Shown one piece after another: positions 19,690 through 63,664 of a DNA stretch of 64,000 nucleotides. The translations under genes and the position numbers were made by a program. The stretch lies in NCBI GenBank assembly GCA_030682495.1, contig JAUXOC010000057.1:34486-98485 (forward strand). The letters run 5' to 3'. The stretch is from Alphaproteobacteria bacterium. GTDB taxonomy: Bacteria; Pseudomonadota; Alphaproteobacteria; Micavibrionales; UBA2020. A model generated the notes under the pieces. That model saw only the letters and a program-made list of their open reading frames with translations. It ran no database searches and had not been told where the DNA came from. The first letter of the stretch is position 1; each line of letters opens with the position of its first letter.

Positions 19690-19712
19690 CGGGAACCTCT
19701 TGCCGCCGCAGG

Positions 19713-19727
19713 TGTTATAATGTAACA
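19713..19727. promoter_or_regulatory. Candidate Zur-type operator
   Basis: tgttataatgtaaca, inverted repeat TGTTA-N5-TAACA, 35 bp upstream of the ABC ATPase start. Confidence 0.5.
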
Positions 19728-19762
19728 ATTCAAACCTGCCCGAGAAGCGAAGGTTTTGACAG

Positions 19763-58175: not shown

Positions 58176-59063
58176 ATGATTGCCCCGAAGCCTACCTTTG
58201 AAACCTATGACGGCCTTGCTTGTGCGCGTTTTGACCCGCCGCAGGGCATATCGCCGCGCGGCGATATCGTCGCTGTGCATGGCCTGACGCGTCAAAAGCG
58301 CGATTTCGATTTTATTGGTGCCGCGCTCGCCGCGCAGGGCTGGCGGTTTTTCGCTTTCGATACCCCCGGCCGCGGCGAGAGCCTGCGCCTGCCACCCGAA
58401 GAATACCACCTGACACGCTATGCAGAAATTTTTACAGCCCTGCTGACGCGGCACTTCAGCGCGCCTGTGCACTGGATAGGCACGTCGATGGGCGGGCTCA
58501 TCGCGCTTGAAATGTCGGCGCAGGACGGCGCGGCGCAAATCGCTTCTCTTACGCTTGTCGATATCACGCATCGCCCGCATCCCGCCGCCTGCGCGCGCAT
58601 CGCCGATTACGTCGTGGAAAACCTGCCTGTGCTGCCGTCGGTCGAGGCTTATCTGGAGGTGCTCAAAATAAACCTGCCGCTCGGTGATGTCAGCGATGCG
58701 GTCTGGCGGCATTACGCCGAACATCAACTGCGCAAGACGGACGCCGGATATATTTTTCACTTCGACCCGACAATCGCCCGCCTCGCTGCCCCCGTCCTGC
58801 GCGCAGGCATCGATATCACCGAGGGCGTCAAAAACCTTATCTGCCCGCTGGCACTGGTCGTAGGCGGAAAATCCGATCTCTGCACGGCGCAGGAAATCGC
58901 AGATTTACAGGCGCTCAAGCCCGCCCTCGCCCTACACCTCTGCCCCGACGCCGGCCACATACCGGCACTGGCCGACAAAGAAACGCAGGATTTCGCCGCA
59001 GGTTTCATCACCCGCGCGACCGCTTCAATATCAGAAAAAATTGGTGCAGGCGGAGGGACTTGA
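58176..59063 (+). CDS. Alpha/beta hydrolase; last ~7 codons lie in the tRNA-Leu-derived repeat
   Basis: GTSMGGLIALE; VVGGKSDLCT; DAGHIPAL; C-terminus IGAGGGT* encoded within 59041..59063. Confidence 0.85.
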   Translation: MIAPKPTFETYDGLACARFDPPQGISPRGDIVAVHGLTRQKRDFDFIGAALAAQGWRFFAFDTPGRGESLRLPPEEYHLTRYAEIFTALLTRHFSAPVHWIGTSMGGLIALEMSAQDGAAQIASLTLVDITHRPHPAACARIADYVVENLPVLPSVEAYLEVLKINLPLGDVSDAVWRHYAEHQLRKTDAGYIFHFDPTIARLAAPVLRAGIDITEGVKNLICPLALVVGGKSDLCTAQEIADLQALKPALALHLCPDAGHIPALADKETQDFAAGFITRATASISEKIGAGGGT

Positions 59064-59096
59064 ACCCTCACGGGATTGCTCCCCACGGATTTTAAG
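59041..59096 (-). repeat. att-like direct repeat copy 1 (3' half of tRNA-Leu)
   Basis: ttggtgcaggcggagggacttgaaccctcacgggattgctccccacggattttaag, identical to 63578..63633. Confidence 0.97.
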
Positions 59097-59464
59097 CCCT
59101 CTGATTTCAGCCGCTACTGCCTTGAATTTATTATATATTTCATCCTCAAAAAGTCAGTCGTGTAAGTTTTCGGAGTGATTTGCGCTCTTCTCAGACTCAA
59201 GCGCAACAGACTTGCTCTGTAGGATTGTGAAGCACGATACACAAGACACTTATCAGCAATAATCTCTCCTGAGCGGCAGACCCGAAAGGCGCTACCCACT
59301 ACTCTGCGGCGACTTCTCAAAACACTTTTTAAAGAGGCTTAGTGGGCATGAGGGGGTGACCACAAATCCCTGCTGTAGCCGCCGCGGTATTAAATATTGG
59401 GCTTTTATTTGCAGATGTCCTGCCGACCTCGCTATGCTATGCTGCCCTGCAGGAAAGAGAGCAC

Positions 59465-60592
59465 ATGCAGGACGTTTACATCAATAGTTTCGGAGCTTTT
59501 TTACCAGGCTCGCCCGTTAGCAATGCGGAGATGGAGGATTACCTCGGTCTGGTCGGTGGAGTGCCCTCGCGCCATCGAGTACTTGTCTTGCGCCAGAACC
59601 GTATCAAGACCCGCCACTACGCGCTCGACCGCAACGGACGACCTCTTTACTCGAACGCACAAATGGCTGCAAGCGCCATTACCGATGCACTTAAAAAATC
59701 GGAAATCTCCCGTAATGAGATCTCCTATCTCGCCACATCGACAACGATTGCCGATATGCTATTACCCGGCCTAGCTTCGCATGTGCACGCAGAACTAAGG
59801 CTGCCTCCGCTTGAAATCGCCAGCTTTCAGAGCGTTTGCGCCAGCGCGCTGATGGCACTGAAATCCGCCTATGTGCAGATCCGTGCAGGCGAGCATGCCT
59901 GCGCCGCCGTCAGCGGCAGCGAGTTTGCCAGCCGCTATTTCCGCCCAGGCTTTTACGAACACACGCGGCATTTCCGCAAAACCGGCACCGTACCGCTAGA
60001 GGCGGATTTCCTGCGCTTCACCCTGTCCGACGGTGCGGGTGCAGCGATACTGGAGCGTAAGCCGAACGCCCGCCAGATCTCTTTCAAAATCCTCTGGATC
60101 GACATCCGCTCCTACGCCGACCGTTTCGACACCTGCATGACGGCGGGGGCGCGGCGCGAATCACAGGGCACGCTGTCACCCTGGGGTGATTTCGGCGGCC
60201 CGCTGGCCGCGGCGGAAGAAGGCGCGCTGATGCTGACGCAGGATTTCACAATCTTGCAAGAAATGATCCCCGTCTGGGTGTCGCATTACCTCGACCTGCT
60301 CCAGCAGGGGCGTTTCCGGCTCGAAGATATCGACTTTCTGTGCAGCCATTATTCGGCCCATTCGCTGCGCGAGGACGCGATCGCCCTGCTCCGCGCCGCC
60401 GGTGCGCTGGTGCCGGAAGAAAAATGGTTCAGCAACCTCTACACTCGCGGCAATACCGGCACGGCGTCAATTTTTATCATGCTCGACGAGCTTTGCCGCG
60501 AAAAAGACCTTGCGTCCGGTCAAAAAATCTTGTGCCATGTACCAGAAAGTGGGCGTTGCCTGAACGGATTGATGATGCTGGAGGTTGTATAG
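59465..60592 (+). CDS. Beta-ketoacyl-ACP synthase III-like (thiolase-fold) enzyme
   Basis: FQSVCASALMALKSA (active Cys), FLCSHYSAHS (His), NLYTRGNTGTASI (Asn). Confidence 0.85.
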   Translation: MQDVYINSFGAFLPGSPVSNAEMEDYLGLVGGVPSRHRVLVLRQNRIKTRHYALDRNGRPLYSNAQMAASAITDALKKSEISRNEISYLATSTTIADMLLPGLASHVHAELRLPPLEIASFQSVCASALMALKSAYVQIRAGEHACAAVSGSEFASRYFRPGFYEHTRHFRKTGTVPLEADFLRFTLSDGAGAAILERKPNARQISFKILWIDIRSYADRFDTCMTAGARRESQGTLSPWGDFGGPLAAAEEGALMLTQDFTILQEMIPVWVSHYLDLLQQGRFRLEDIDFLCSHYSAHSLREDAIALLRAAGALVPEEKWFSNLYTRGNTGTASIFIMLDELCREKDLASGQKILCHVPESGRCLNGLMMLEVV

Positions 60593-60593
60593 A

Positions 60594-61322
60594 ATGACAA
60601 ACGCGAAAGCAGACGGAGCGACCGTCAGAAAACCGGAAGGCACGGCGTCGGCGCGCATGGACAGCGAGACCGTGATGCGCGGCCTGATGATTGTCTGGAG
60701 TGATTTCGACGCCCAGATCGAAAACGTCCCGCTGATCGATAAACTGCGTCGCGGCAAATTTCGCGATGAAGATTACAAAGCCCTGCTGATCAATCACCGC
60801 CAGCAGGTCGTCGAGGGCGCACGATGGATCGCCCGTGCTGCGTCCAGTATTTGCTCCCGCTATGCCGACCAGCGCTCGCTGTTCCTGAAGCACGCGGTAG
60901 CGGAGCATCAGGACTTCCGCATGCTCGAAAAACATTACGTATCGATGGGCGGCACGCTGGAGGAAATCCGCAGTGCGCCCAGAAATATCGGCACCGAGGC
61001 ACTACACGCCTTTATGTACCACAGTGCCGGACAAGCCGACCCCTTCGACCTTTTGGGCGCCATGTTCATCATCGAAGGACTTGGGGAGAAAAAGGCTGGC
61101 GTCTGGGGTCGCAAGATACAGGAACAGTTGAACCTTGCCGACGATCAGGTCAGTTTTTTCATCTATCACGCTGAACACGACGAAGACCATATGGCGCATT
61201 TCGTCGATACCTTGAACTCCGGCATCCTTGACGAGCCGGGCATGGGAGAACGCATCATCAAGACCGCAAAAATCGTCGCACGACTTTACCGACTACAACT
61301 TGAAGAACTGGGCAACATATGA
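60594..61322 (+). CDS. Iron-containing redox enzyme, heme-oxygenase-like diiron oxidase family
   Basis: Metal-ligand-like pattern KHAVAEHQDF, FIIEGLGEKKA, YHAEHDEDHMAHF. Confidence 0.75.
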   Translation: MTNAKADGATVRKPEGTASARMDSETVMRGLMIVWSDFDAQIENVPLIDKLRRGKFRDEDYKALLINHRQQVVEGARWIARAASSICSRYADQRSLFLKHAVAEHQDFRMLEKHYVSMGGTLEEIRSAPRNIGTEALHAFMYHSAGQADPFDLLGAMFIIEGLGEKKAGVWGRKIQEQLNLADDQVSFFIYHAEHDEDHMAHFVDTLNSGILDEPGMGERIIKTAKIVARLYRLQLEELGNI

Positions 61323-62233
61323 CGGACACCGCCACCAGTCCGCTGCCCGTGCATGACGACAAAAACCCTGATCCGTGGCGAGCCTTGCTGCTCGACCGCA
61401 GCACCTTCATCGACGAAAAGGTCAAGGCGGCGCTTTTGCGCAACAACGCCAGCCGGTCGCGCCAGTTTTTGCTGCCTGTTGTGCGCCCGCTTGCGCGGCT
61501 GAGCATCGGCATCGTCCAGCTGTTCCGGCTGCTACTGCCACGCACCCTGATTTCACCACGCGCGCTGCACGCCGTCATCTGCTGGGGCATGCGCACCTTT
61601 GTCGCGCCCGAAGCGAATTACCTGATCCTGCGGCATTTCAACATTGGCAGCCAGATCCTCGGCTTTTTGAACCGCAATCTGGCAGGTGGCACCCTGCCCG
61701 CGCACCCGCTGTTGCCGCGCAAGATCGCCGATGTAGGCAACAACAGCTTTATCCAGCACGACCTCAATATTTACAACTTTATCATTCACCTGAACGCGCA
61801 TTTACAGCGCGAGGGTAAAACGATCATCGCCGTCCCACTGGGCGAGATCGATTTTTCGCCGATCCGGCCCTTTGATTCTGAATTCGAGGCTTTTCCGAAC
61901 CGTTGGCACAACTTCCTCGACCTGCAAAGTGCGATTGAACTGTACACCCCGCTATTCGGCATTTTCCTGTCCGACGACGATTTCTGGCGCGCGAGCAATT
62001 CGCTGCAACTCGACGAAACCATCGCCACCTATGTCGCACAGCTTTTCGGACGACCGGAAATCCTGAGCGTCGTCAACAACCGCCACCCAATGATCCCTCT
62101 ATCCACTTTCGAAGCTGGTTTCCGGCTAATGCTGCACGGATATGACGCGGAAAATCTTTACGGCTTCATCAACGCAATGAAAGAAAGCGCGGGCCATGAC
62201 GACGCCGCACTCAATGCCATATCCGGTTATTGA
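61319..62233 (+). CDS. Conserved-looking protein of unknown function
   Basis: ATGA overlap with upstream ORF, 38-bp overlap with downstream P450; no motif recognised with confidence. Confidence 0.7.
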   Translation: MTDTATSPLPVHDDKNPDPWRALLLDRSTFIDEKVKAALLRNNASRSRQFLLPVVRPLARLSIGIVQLFRLLLPRTLISPRALHAVICWGMRTFVAPEANYLILRHFNIGSQILGFLNRNLAGGTLPAHPLLPRKIADVGNNSFIQHDLNIYNFIIHLNAHLQREGKTIIAVPLGEIDFSPIRPFDSEFEAFPNRWHNFLDLQSAIELYTPLFGIFLSDDDFWRASNSLQLDETIATYVAQLFGRPEILSVVNNRHPMIPLSTFEAGFRLMLHGYDAENLYGFINAMKESAGHDDAALNAISGY

Positions 62234-63527
62234 CGGCGTACGCCCGCTTCTGGGCCATATGCCGGAAATGCAGAGAGATACCTATGGCTTTTACCTACGC
62301 CATCACCGCGCTAGCGGCGATAGCCTCCGCTTCAACGCCTATCCATTTATCAATTTTTACTCCTTCGCGGCACCGGATGCGCTGCACCATATCCTCATCA
62401 AAGCAAGGCAGAAATACAGCCGTGGCGCAAGGTGGAGCCGCATCGTGTCCCACATCGGCGGCAAGGGAATCGTCACCAGCACGGGTGACATATGGGAAAA
62501 ACAGCGCCGCGCCGTCACGCCTTACTTCCAGCCCGCGCATGTCGACAAATACACAGACATGATCGTGCGCAACACATACGAGATGGCTCAGAAATGGCGG
62601 CGCGCCGGTAACGATACCACTATCAACGTCTCGCGCGAAATGATGTCACTCGGTCTTGTCAATATCAGCGACATGCTGTTCAACTACGACATCCGCCCAC
62701 GGGTGGAAACCTTTGCTAGCGCGATGGTGGACGGGTTTTACTACATCAACCGGTTTATTCAGAACCCGCTGACACCACCGCGTTTCCTGCCTCTGCCCGT
62801 CAACCGCCGTTTCGCCCGTGACAAGGCTATAGCTGACGCCGTGGTGCGCGATATCATCGCAGCAGTGCGTAAGGACGACGAAAATTGCATGATCAACGCT
62901 CTTGTGCGCGCCGGAAATACCGACCGTCAGCTGCATGACGAGATCATCACGCTTTTAATGGCGGGCTACGACACGCTGTCGACGGCGCTTGCTTGGGCAT
63001 GGTATTTGCTGGCGAGAAACCCTGCTGCGCTGGGCAAGGTGAAGGAAGAGCTGCGCGATGTGCTGGGTCCGCAGGGTCTACCCAATGCGGAGAATGTTGA
63101 GAGACTTTCATACCTGCGCATGGTATTCAAGGAAACGCTGCGGCTTTATCCTTCCGCTTGGGCGATCCACCGCTTCAGCGAAGAGGCGGACGAAGTTATT
63201 GGGTTCCCCGTGCGCAAGGGTAGCTCTGTCGTGCTGCCGCTTTACGTCACGCACCGTCATCCGGATTTCTGGAAGCACCCAGACGAGTTTTATCCCGAAC
63301 ATTTCGACAAAGCCGAAGTCGAGGGCCGCCCACGTTTCGCCTACTTGCCTTTCGGCGCAGGTGAACATGTCTGCGTCGGCGCTCATCTGGCGGGGATGGA
63401 GGGCGTGCTGATCCTCGCGACTCTGTTGCAGCACCTTACGCCGCGGCTGGCAACCGGTGCCGAGATTGCGCCGTTGGTCAATTTTACCCTAAAGCCCTCG
63501 CAGGACATCGTTTCTTTTGCAGTATAG
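62196..63527 (+). CDS. Cytochrome P450
   Basis: I-helix AGYDTLSTALAW, ExxR FKETLRLYP, heme-binding PFGAGEHVCVGAHLAGME. Confidence 0.97.
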   Translation: MTTPHSMPYPVIDGVRPLLGHMPEMQRDTYGFYLRHHRASGDSLRFNAYPFINFYSFAAPDALHHILIKARQKYSRGARWSRIVSHIGGKGIVTSTGDIWEKQRRAVTPYFQPAHVDKYTDMIVRNTYEMAQKWRRAGNDTTINVSREMMSLGLVNISDMLFNYDIRPRVETFASAMVDGFYYINRFIQNPLTPPRFLPLPVNRRFARDKAIADAVVRDIIAAVRKDDENCMINALVRAGNTDRQLHDEIITLLMAGYDTLSTALAWAWYLLARNPAALGKVKEELRDVLGPQGLPNAENVERLSYLRMVFKETLRLYPSAWAIHRFSEEADEVIGFPVRKGSSVVLPLYVTHRHPDFWKHPDEFYPEHFDKAEVEGRPRFAYLPFGAGEHVCVGAHLAGMEGVLILATLLQHLTPRLATGAEIAPLVNFTLKPSQDIVSFAV

Positions 63528-63577
63528 CTGCTGAATTATAGGTTGCAGTTTGCGGCCACTTTCTGGCCAGCTAAAAT

Positions 63578-63633
63578 TTGGTGCAGGCGGAGGGACTTGA
63601 ACCCTCACGGGATTGCTCCCCACGGATTTTAAG
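63578..63633 (-). repeat. att-like direct repeat copy 2 (within intact tRNA-Leu)
   Basis: Identical 56 bp to 59041..59096. Confidence 0.97.
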
Positions 63634-63664
63634 TCCGTTGCGTATACCGTTCCGCCACGCCTGC
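63579..63664 (-). tRNA. tRNA-Leu (TAA anticodon), CCA encoded
   Basis: Minus strand: GCAGGCG...CGCCTGC acceptor, anticodon arm ACGGACTTAAAATCCGT, variable arm, GGGTTCAAGTCCC T-arm, A-CCA. Confidence 0.95.

Follow-up and report, generated by a model that had tools for sequence, protein, structure and literature searches.

A four-gene operon for a ketosynthase, a heme-oxygenase-like oxidase, a DUF6999 protein and a cytochrome P450, framed by tRNA-Leu repeats in an alphaproteobacterial genome

The DNA analyzed here, referred to as the window, is a stretch of 64,000 nucleotides from an alphaproteobacterium of the order Micavibrionales (assembly GCA_030682495.1, contig JAUXOC010000057.1, positions 34,486 to 98,485), in which four forward-strand genes form one operon enclosed by two copies of a tRNA-Leu sequence. 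The first gene (59465..60592, +) encodes a ketosynthase that resembles β-ketoacyl-acyl carrier protein synthase III (KAS III) and is related to StlD and DarB. It is followed by genes for a heme-oxygenase-like diiron oxidase (HDO; 60594..61322, +; PF14518), an all-helical DUF6999 protein (61319..62233, +; PF22523, E 7.5e-108) and a cytochrome P450 (62196..63527, +; PF00067, E 1.6e-66), the last with its AGxDT, ExxR and FxxGxxxCxG motifs (residues 256, 313 and 386, respectively) all intact. An initial annotation made from the sequence alone had described a single biosynthetic operon of four genes, and this description was confirmed, all four lying on one strand. Of its spacings, the 4-nt (ATGA) overlap between the HDO and DUF6999 genes and the 38-bp overlap between the DUF6999 and P450 genes were reproduced, the latter also being kept in a sister genome (G015, L022); the gap between the ketosynthase and HDO genes was corrected from 2 nt to 1 nt. 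The start of the HDO gene is uncertain (60594 or 60657), with relatives beginning at the equivalent of 60657. Codon usage and GC content of the operon are those of its surroundings.

The two borders of this island carry a perfect 56-bp direct repeat (59041-59096 and 63578-63633), with 58 of 60 bases identical when the register is extended. The repeat covers tRNA-Leu(TAA) from the CCA end through the anticodon loop. On the left it constitutes a tRNA 3′ half, the putative duplicated core of an attachment (att) site (59041..59096, −), and on the right it forms part of an intact tRNA-Leu(TAA) (63579..63664, −; ARAGORN; Rfam RF00005, 62 bits). Exactly two copies occur in the whole 2.52-Mb genome, both at the island ends, where the initial annotation had placed them. 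Between them, the island of ∼4.5–4.6 kb holds four same-strand open reading frames (ORFs), separated from the repeats by flanks of 51 and 368 nt. A tRNA 3′ end duplicated at the far border is the arrangement expected of a tRNA-integrated island. Such an island would also be expected to contain an integrase, and no ORF within the 4.6 kb matches one; the genome has five PF00589 loci, which are on other contigs or ∼83 kb away. Upstream of the ketosynthase gene, the 368 bp that follow the left repeat show no recognizable coding potential, and a remnant integrase considered there was rejected, as neither a reading frame nor an above-cut-off Pfam match was found. In agreement with the initial annotation, no regulator, exporter, acyl carrier protein (ACP) or adenylation domain is encoded in the 4.6-kb island. 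Defense cargo was likewise rejected, none of the four proteins giving a PADLOC match.

Just inside the left repeat lies a 45-bp motif (59122..59166, +) containing CAAAAAGTCAGTCGTGTAAG. The motif recurs in three further family genomes (G011, G005, and G001), each time immediately next to a 3′ half of tRNA-Leu terminating in the anticodon loop. For its 20-bp core, 0.07 chance matches are expected in the window with up to 3 mismatches allowed. A search with the arm pattern across 2.9 million viral contigs returned one match, which had no tRNA beside it and was judged to be chance. We take the 45-bp motif to be the integrase-arm part of an att site. In G011 (contig C4), it sits at the end of a small element (L191:67-4617) encoding the pair AbiEi/AbiEii and a protein of 400 aa that resembles tyrosine integrases; this element is plausibly related to the one from which the att sites in the window came. 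In G005 (C5:771631-788772; L193), an intact tRNA-Leu(TAA) is followed by 17 kb of cargo with the arm motif inside and a 64-bp tRNA duplicate, and no integrase is among the ORFs listed; this is a further cargo-only island from the same family. Its cargo includes genes for a resistance-nodulation-division pump, an ATP-binding cassette (ABC) exporter, a thiolase, a FabF-like ketosynthase, a short-chain dehydrogenase/reductase (SDR) and a TetR protein. Because the arm motif is shared with an element that encodes an integrase and with two further 3′ halves of tRNA-Leu in the family, the reading of the repeats as att sites is strengthened, which supports the earlier suggestion of a tyrosine-integrase footprint.

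The segment thus has att sites on both sides of a cargo that lacks recombination genes, with an arm shared with an integrase-bearing element. In this it resembles cis-mobilizable elements (CIMEs) and other integrase-less tRNA islands, which are presumably moved in trans. Unlike CIMEs, its cargo is a single biosynthetic operon, which in congeners occupies another place on the chromosome. A candidate second tRNA-bounded copy of the operon, ∼100 bp after a tRNA-Asn in G006, was discarded because no repeat was found.

The congeners in question, like the other close relatives compared, are represented by draft assemblies. Both sister genomes (G015 and G016) carry the four genes, in unchanged order, with mdh on one side and a gene for an ABC-transporter ATPase on the other, and no repeats are present. 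As judged by synteny and junction sequences, the corresponding intergenic junction of the window (19690..19762) is unoccupied: the sequence leads from mdh directly into the promoter-like TGTTATAATRTAACAATTCAA that the sisters also have. Conversely, G015 has a single tRNA-Leu copy adjoining uvrC, as in the window, but no operon there. The comparison with an unoccupied site is blurred on the left, where other DNA and a contig gap intervene between the flanking gene and tRNA-Leu in G015; as far as can be read across contig gaps, the sisters appear to hold a long gene with internal repeats between the left-flank hydrolase gene and tRNA-Leu. In the present genome this gene lies on other contigs (G000:C89:26700-34800 and C57:19700-23700; further loci L139, L140, and L153). 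An apparently broken ketosynthase gene in G016 is explained by a run of N.

At the protein level, the window and G015 share 85% identity for the ketosynthase, 89% for the HDO, 83% for DUF6999 and 77% for the P450, compared with 88% for UvrC and 77% for the flanking hydrolase. A recent foreign import is not supported, given this core-gene-like identity and the native codon usage and GC content. Within a single genus the operon thus occupies two different sites; having diverged as much as core genes, with native codon usage and GC content and another location in congeners, it has long been present in this group and has moved. The initial annotation had presented the locus as a transferable pathway, and the att sites uphold that part of the claim; the location in congeners without repeats, the core-like divergence, the native codons and the lack of an integrase of its own do not. 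It had also named a chromosomal, repeat-free location in all relatives as one finding that would tell against its proposal. G015 and G016 have such a location, but at a different address, which bears out that objection only by half.

Two accounts of this relocation were weighed. In the one we prefer, the island would be a ∼4.5-kb segment of the cis-mobilizable type, bounded by the two att sites of an element family whose tyrosine integrases target tRNA-Leu but lacking an integrase itself. The other holds that an ordinary, vertically inherited operon was relocated once by recombination, the tRNA half and arm being the scar of an unrelated, decayed element that used the same tRNA. It would suit the repeat-free locus in the sisters, the identities to G015 set against that of UvrC, the native codon usage and GC content, and the missing integrase. 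It fits poorly with a repeat and arm that frame exactly four genes as tightly as an excisable unit would, with 51 and 368 nt to spare, and with the same cargo-only layout around different genes in G005. We consider the scar account rather unlikely and retain the cis-mobilizable-type segment as the working interpretation.

Across more distant genomes and across phyla, the conserved unit is a triad of ketosynthase, HDO and DUF6999 rather than all four genes, the P450 being a lineage-specific addition. DUF6999 was found in 6 of 18 genomes of the family, 17 of 141 of the order and 9 of 399 in a phylum sample, and in readable neighborhoods it lies beside a ketosynthase and an HDO everywhere but in one fragment (G010). 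The three genes are adjacent in nearly all of more than 70 loci. A scan based on the HDO family recovered the triad from Shewanella, Rheinheimera, Halomonas, Billgrantia, Colwellia, and Vibrio rumoiensis, as well as from Sneathiella, Sphingomonas, Rhodoblastus, and many Poseidoniales archaea; plasmids of Pseudoalteromonas and Nostoc also bear it. The loci from Poseidoniales (marine group II archaea; L061-L111) form one clade beside the gammaproteobacteria in the tree and have a membrane protein upstream. Homologue distances of the three triad genes co-vary (r = 0.94-0.95, against at most 0.21 with permuted labels). On a Nostoc flagelliforme plasmid (L021:5867-8480) the triad looks decayed, with a split HDO, a truncated DUF6999 and no annotated genes, and a DUF6999 gene is present in the genetic model Caulobacter vibrioides.

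Coupling between the first two members extends to gene fusion. In six distant genomes (L201-L206), the ketosynthase and HDO form a single polypeptide of 626-655 aa, followed by DUF6999, and one such fusion, of 633 aa, is encoded in a Bdellovibrionales genome (L102:6834-8735). From these fusions it is argued that the HDO works on the ketosynthase product. The HDO part of the Bdellovibrionales protein (L102:7956-8732) no longer has several of the ligand residues (Gly replaces E104 and Asn replaces H199) and may be inactive. An apparent fusion in Halomonas (L060) proved to be a frame artifact and was left out of the count.

For the ketosynthase, the Cys-His-Asn residues noted as intact in the initial annotation (Cys125, His295, and Asn330) are conserved without exception in the 69 homologues aligned. 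The closest solved structure is StlD (5gk0, 246 bits), with which the protein aligns over its full length, and the position of its His corresponds to the residue altered in StlD entry 5gk2. Ketosynthases of the StlD/DarB type, which act in stilbene and dialkylresorcinol synthesis, form a cyclohexane-1,3-dione. The ketosynthases of the triad relatives tested score 310.8-372.1 bits on the NF005293 model, all under its curated StlD/DarB cut-off of 450, and by this sequence measure the window ketosynthase is placed in a sister group of StlD/DarB rather than within it. The two groups also differ in company: StlD and DarB are partnered by StlC or DarA, whereas the window type is partnered by HDO and DUF6999 and is fused to the HDO in one clade. 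No DarA- or StlC-type aromatase is encoded in the island or recurs in the neighborhoods, the rest of the genome not having been searched for one, nor does an ACP or LuxR-type gene recur in triad neighborhoods, the genome likewise not having been searched for an ACP.

Dialkylresorcinols are known bacterial signals, and the sister relationship to StlD/DarB raises the alternative that the triad belongs to a signaling or pigment pathway akin to the synthesis of dialkylresorcinols or arylpolyenes, for which enzymes of the DarA and ACP types would be encoded at other sites of the genome. The lack of recurring DarA, ACP or LuxR-type genes in the neighborhoods speaks against it, as does the examined part of the dar gene table of PMC3949708, in which neither HDO nor DUF6999 appears. 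We regard a signaling or pigment role of this kind as improbable and favor a separate lipid pathway built around the triad.

An AlphaFold2 model of the HDO (pLDDT 95.7) was compared with solved structures by Foldseek, giving template-modeling (TM) scores of 0.87 for 3dde, 0.84 for chlamydial CADD and 0.67-0.75 for UndA. The model thus indicates a heme-oxygenase-like fold. Ligand positions E74, E104, E161, H192, D196, and H199 are present in the alignment, and with UndA, BesC, SznF, CADD, and PolF the protein shares the fold, the α3 HxxxDxxH motif and a Glu on each of α1, α2, and the auxiliary helix. It departs from the known HDOs in core helix 2, which reads H100-x3-E104-x2-D107: an invariant Asp107 replaces the usual His of the α2 ExxH motif, and an invariant His100 lies one turn earlier. 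The initial assignment as an HDO accordingly stands for the fold and needs qualifying at one metal-ligand position, and the UndA-like reaction or N-oxygenation suggested with it stays conjectural. A 2026 review of HDOs lists only 3H/3C and 3H/4C ligand sets, plus one mononuclear exception (PMC13108848), and by alignment neither set, with its α2 ExxH, is found in the window protein. A different HDO, with the usual ExxH, is encoded on Citrobacter and Vibrio plasmids (L184 and L185) beside thermostable-hemolysin-like, AMP-binding and SDR genes.

The fold itself leaves room for another reaction, whereby the HDO would perform a UndA- or BesC-like oxidative C–C cleavage on a linear β-keto or β-hydroxy acid set free by the ketosynthase, yielding a terminal alkene or a shortened ketone with no oxidation of a ring. 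UndA falls within the fold range (TM up to 0.75), and the HDOs characterized so far act mostly on fatty or amino acids (PMC13108848). The nearest structures are nevertheless 3dde and CADD rather than UndA, position 107 is Asp instead of His, and StlD/DarB relatives cyclize their products (Fuchs et al. 2013, as cited in PMC3949708). Such a cleavage is in our judgment unlikely, and oxidation of the ketosynthase product, in the position of an aromatase, is kept as the preferred role of the HDO.

The third protein, listed as unknown in the initial annotation, is now identified as a member of PF22523 (DUF6999; 360.2 bits against a gathering cut-off of 27). Its model (pLDDT 86.6, pTM 0.85) is all-helical, and no solved fold was matched when it was compared with the PDB (best E 1.9, TM <0.2). 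Residues R105, H106, H147, D148, D232, and H273 of the protein are invariant. No function is assigned to this family and no paper in the literature searched names it; constant genomic partners can now be given for it. Nothing specific was found in the literature on DUF6999, on clusters of KAS and HDO genes or on this operon, and no characterized pathway was matched in the libraries and papers searched.

The fourth partner varies. A P450 takes this position only in the present genus and in G006, and Nostoc has an upstream P450 that is unrelated. In 55 loci from gammaproteobacteria and Poseidoniales, a 190-aa membrane protein is encoded directly upstream of the triad (e.g. L020:5624-6181). It has conserved His residues (H33, H50, H84, H89, H107, and H109), matches no family in Pfam or NCBIfam, and may be a diiron enzyme of the membrane that oxygenates lipids. 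Members of the fusion clade have, in place of the P450, a hydroxylase (PF04116) and a desaturase (PF00487), both of the fatty-acid type. Because the fourth partners are all oxygenases or oxygenase-like, mostly of lipid type, they hint that the product is a lipid; an oxidized, ketosynthase-derived lipid is the most likely product class.

A scheme can be proposed from the enzyme families. The StlD/DarB-like ketosynthase would join two fatty-acyl units from primary metabolism to give a lipid of the β-keto or cyclohexane-1,3-dione type. The HDO, placed after the ketosynthase because the two are often one polypeptide, would next oxidize this product, standing in for the aromatase DarA or for a C–C cleaving step, or would itself cleave a C–C bond. 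DUF6999 would then complete or channel the intermediate, and the last partner (P450 here, or its substitute) would hydroxylate the alkyl chain. Among these steps, it is the ketosynthase–HDO coupling alone for which the sequences offer direct support, through the fusions.

Several observations weigh against this interpretation. The window ketosynthase scores 363.8 bits on NF005293, below the StlD/DarB cut-off, and for this reason its cyclizing activity is not assured. The HDO has no His at the usual α2 position, so its reaction may differ, or two irons may not be bound. The assembly is a fragmented draft in which a misjoin at the 56-bp repeat is possible; the contig is nevertheless 198 kb long. 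With these points taken into account, we consider it reasonably probable that the locus is a cargo-only island of the cis-mobilizable type, with att sites of a tRNA-Leu tyrosine-integrase family, carrying a complete triad-plus-P450 operon for an oxidized lipid. More tentatively, the triad may represent an undescribed pathway widespread in bacteria and Poseidoniales, in which the ketosynthase passes its product to a fused or coupled HDO with altered first-shell ligands and a DUF6999 enzyme of new fold completes a new class of lipid, here on an integrase-less mini-island mobilized in trans.

If this proves true, the operon in this Micavibrio-like alphaproteobacterial lineage would mark a conserved metabolic module that extends from bacteria to abundant marine archaea. 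DUF6999 would gain its first functional context, the KAS-HDO fusion would become a target for enzymology and the Asp-for-His exchange would serve as a natural experiment on what determines HDO reactivity. The att-arm motif, for its part, offers a route to integrase-less, cargo-only islands that are overlooked by integrase-based searches.

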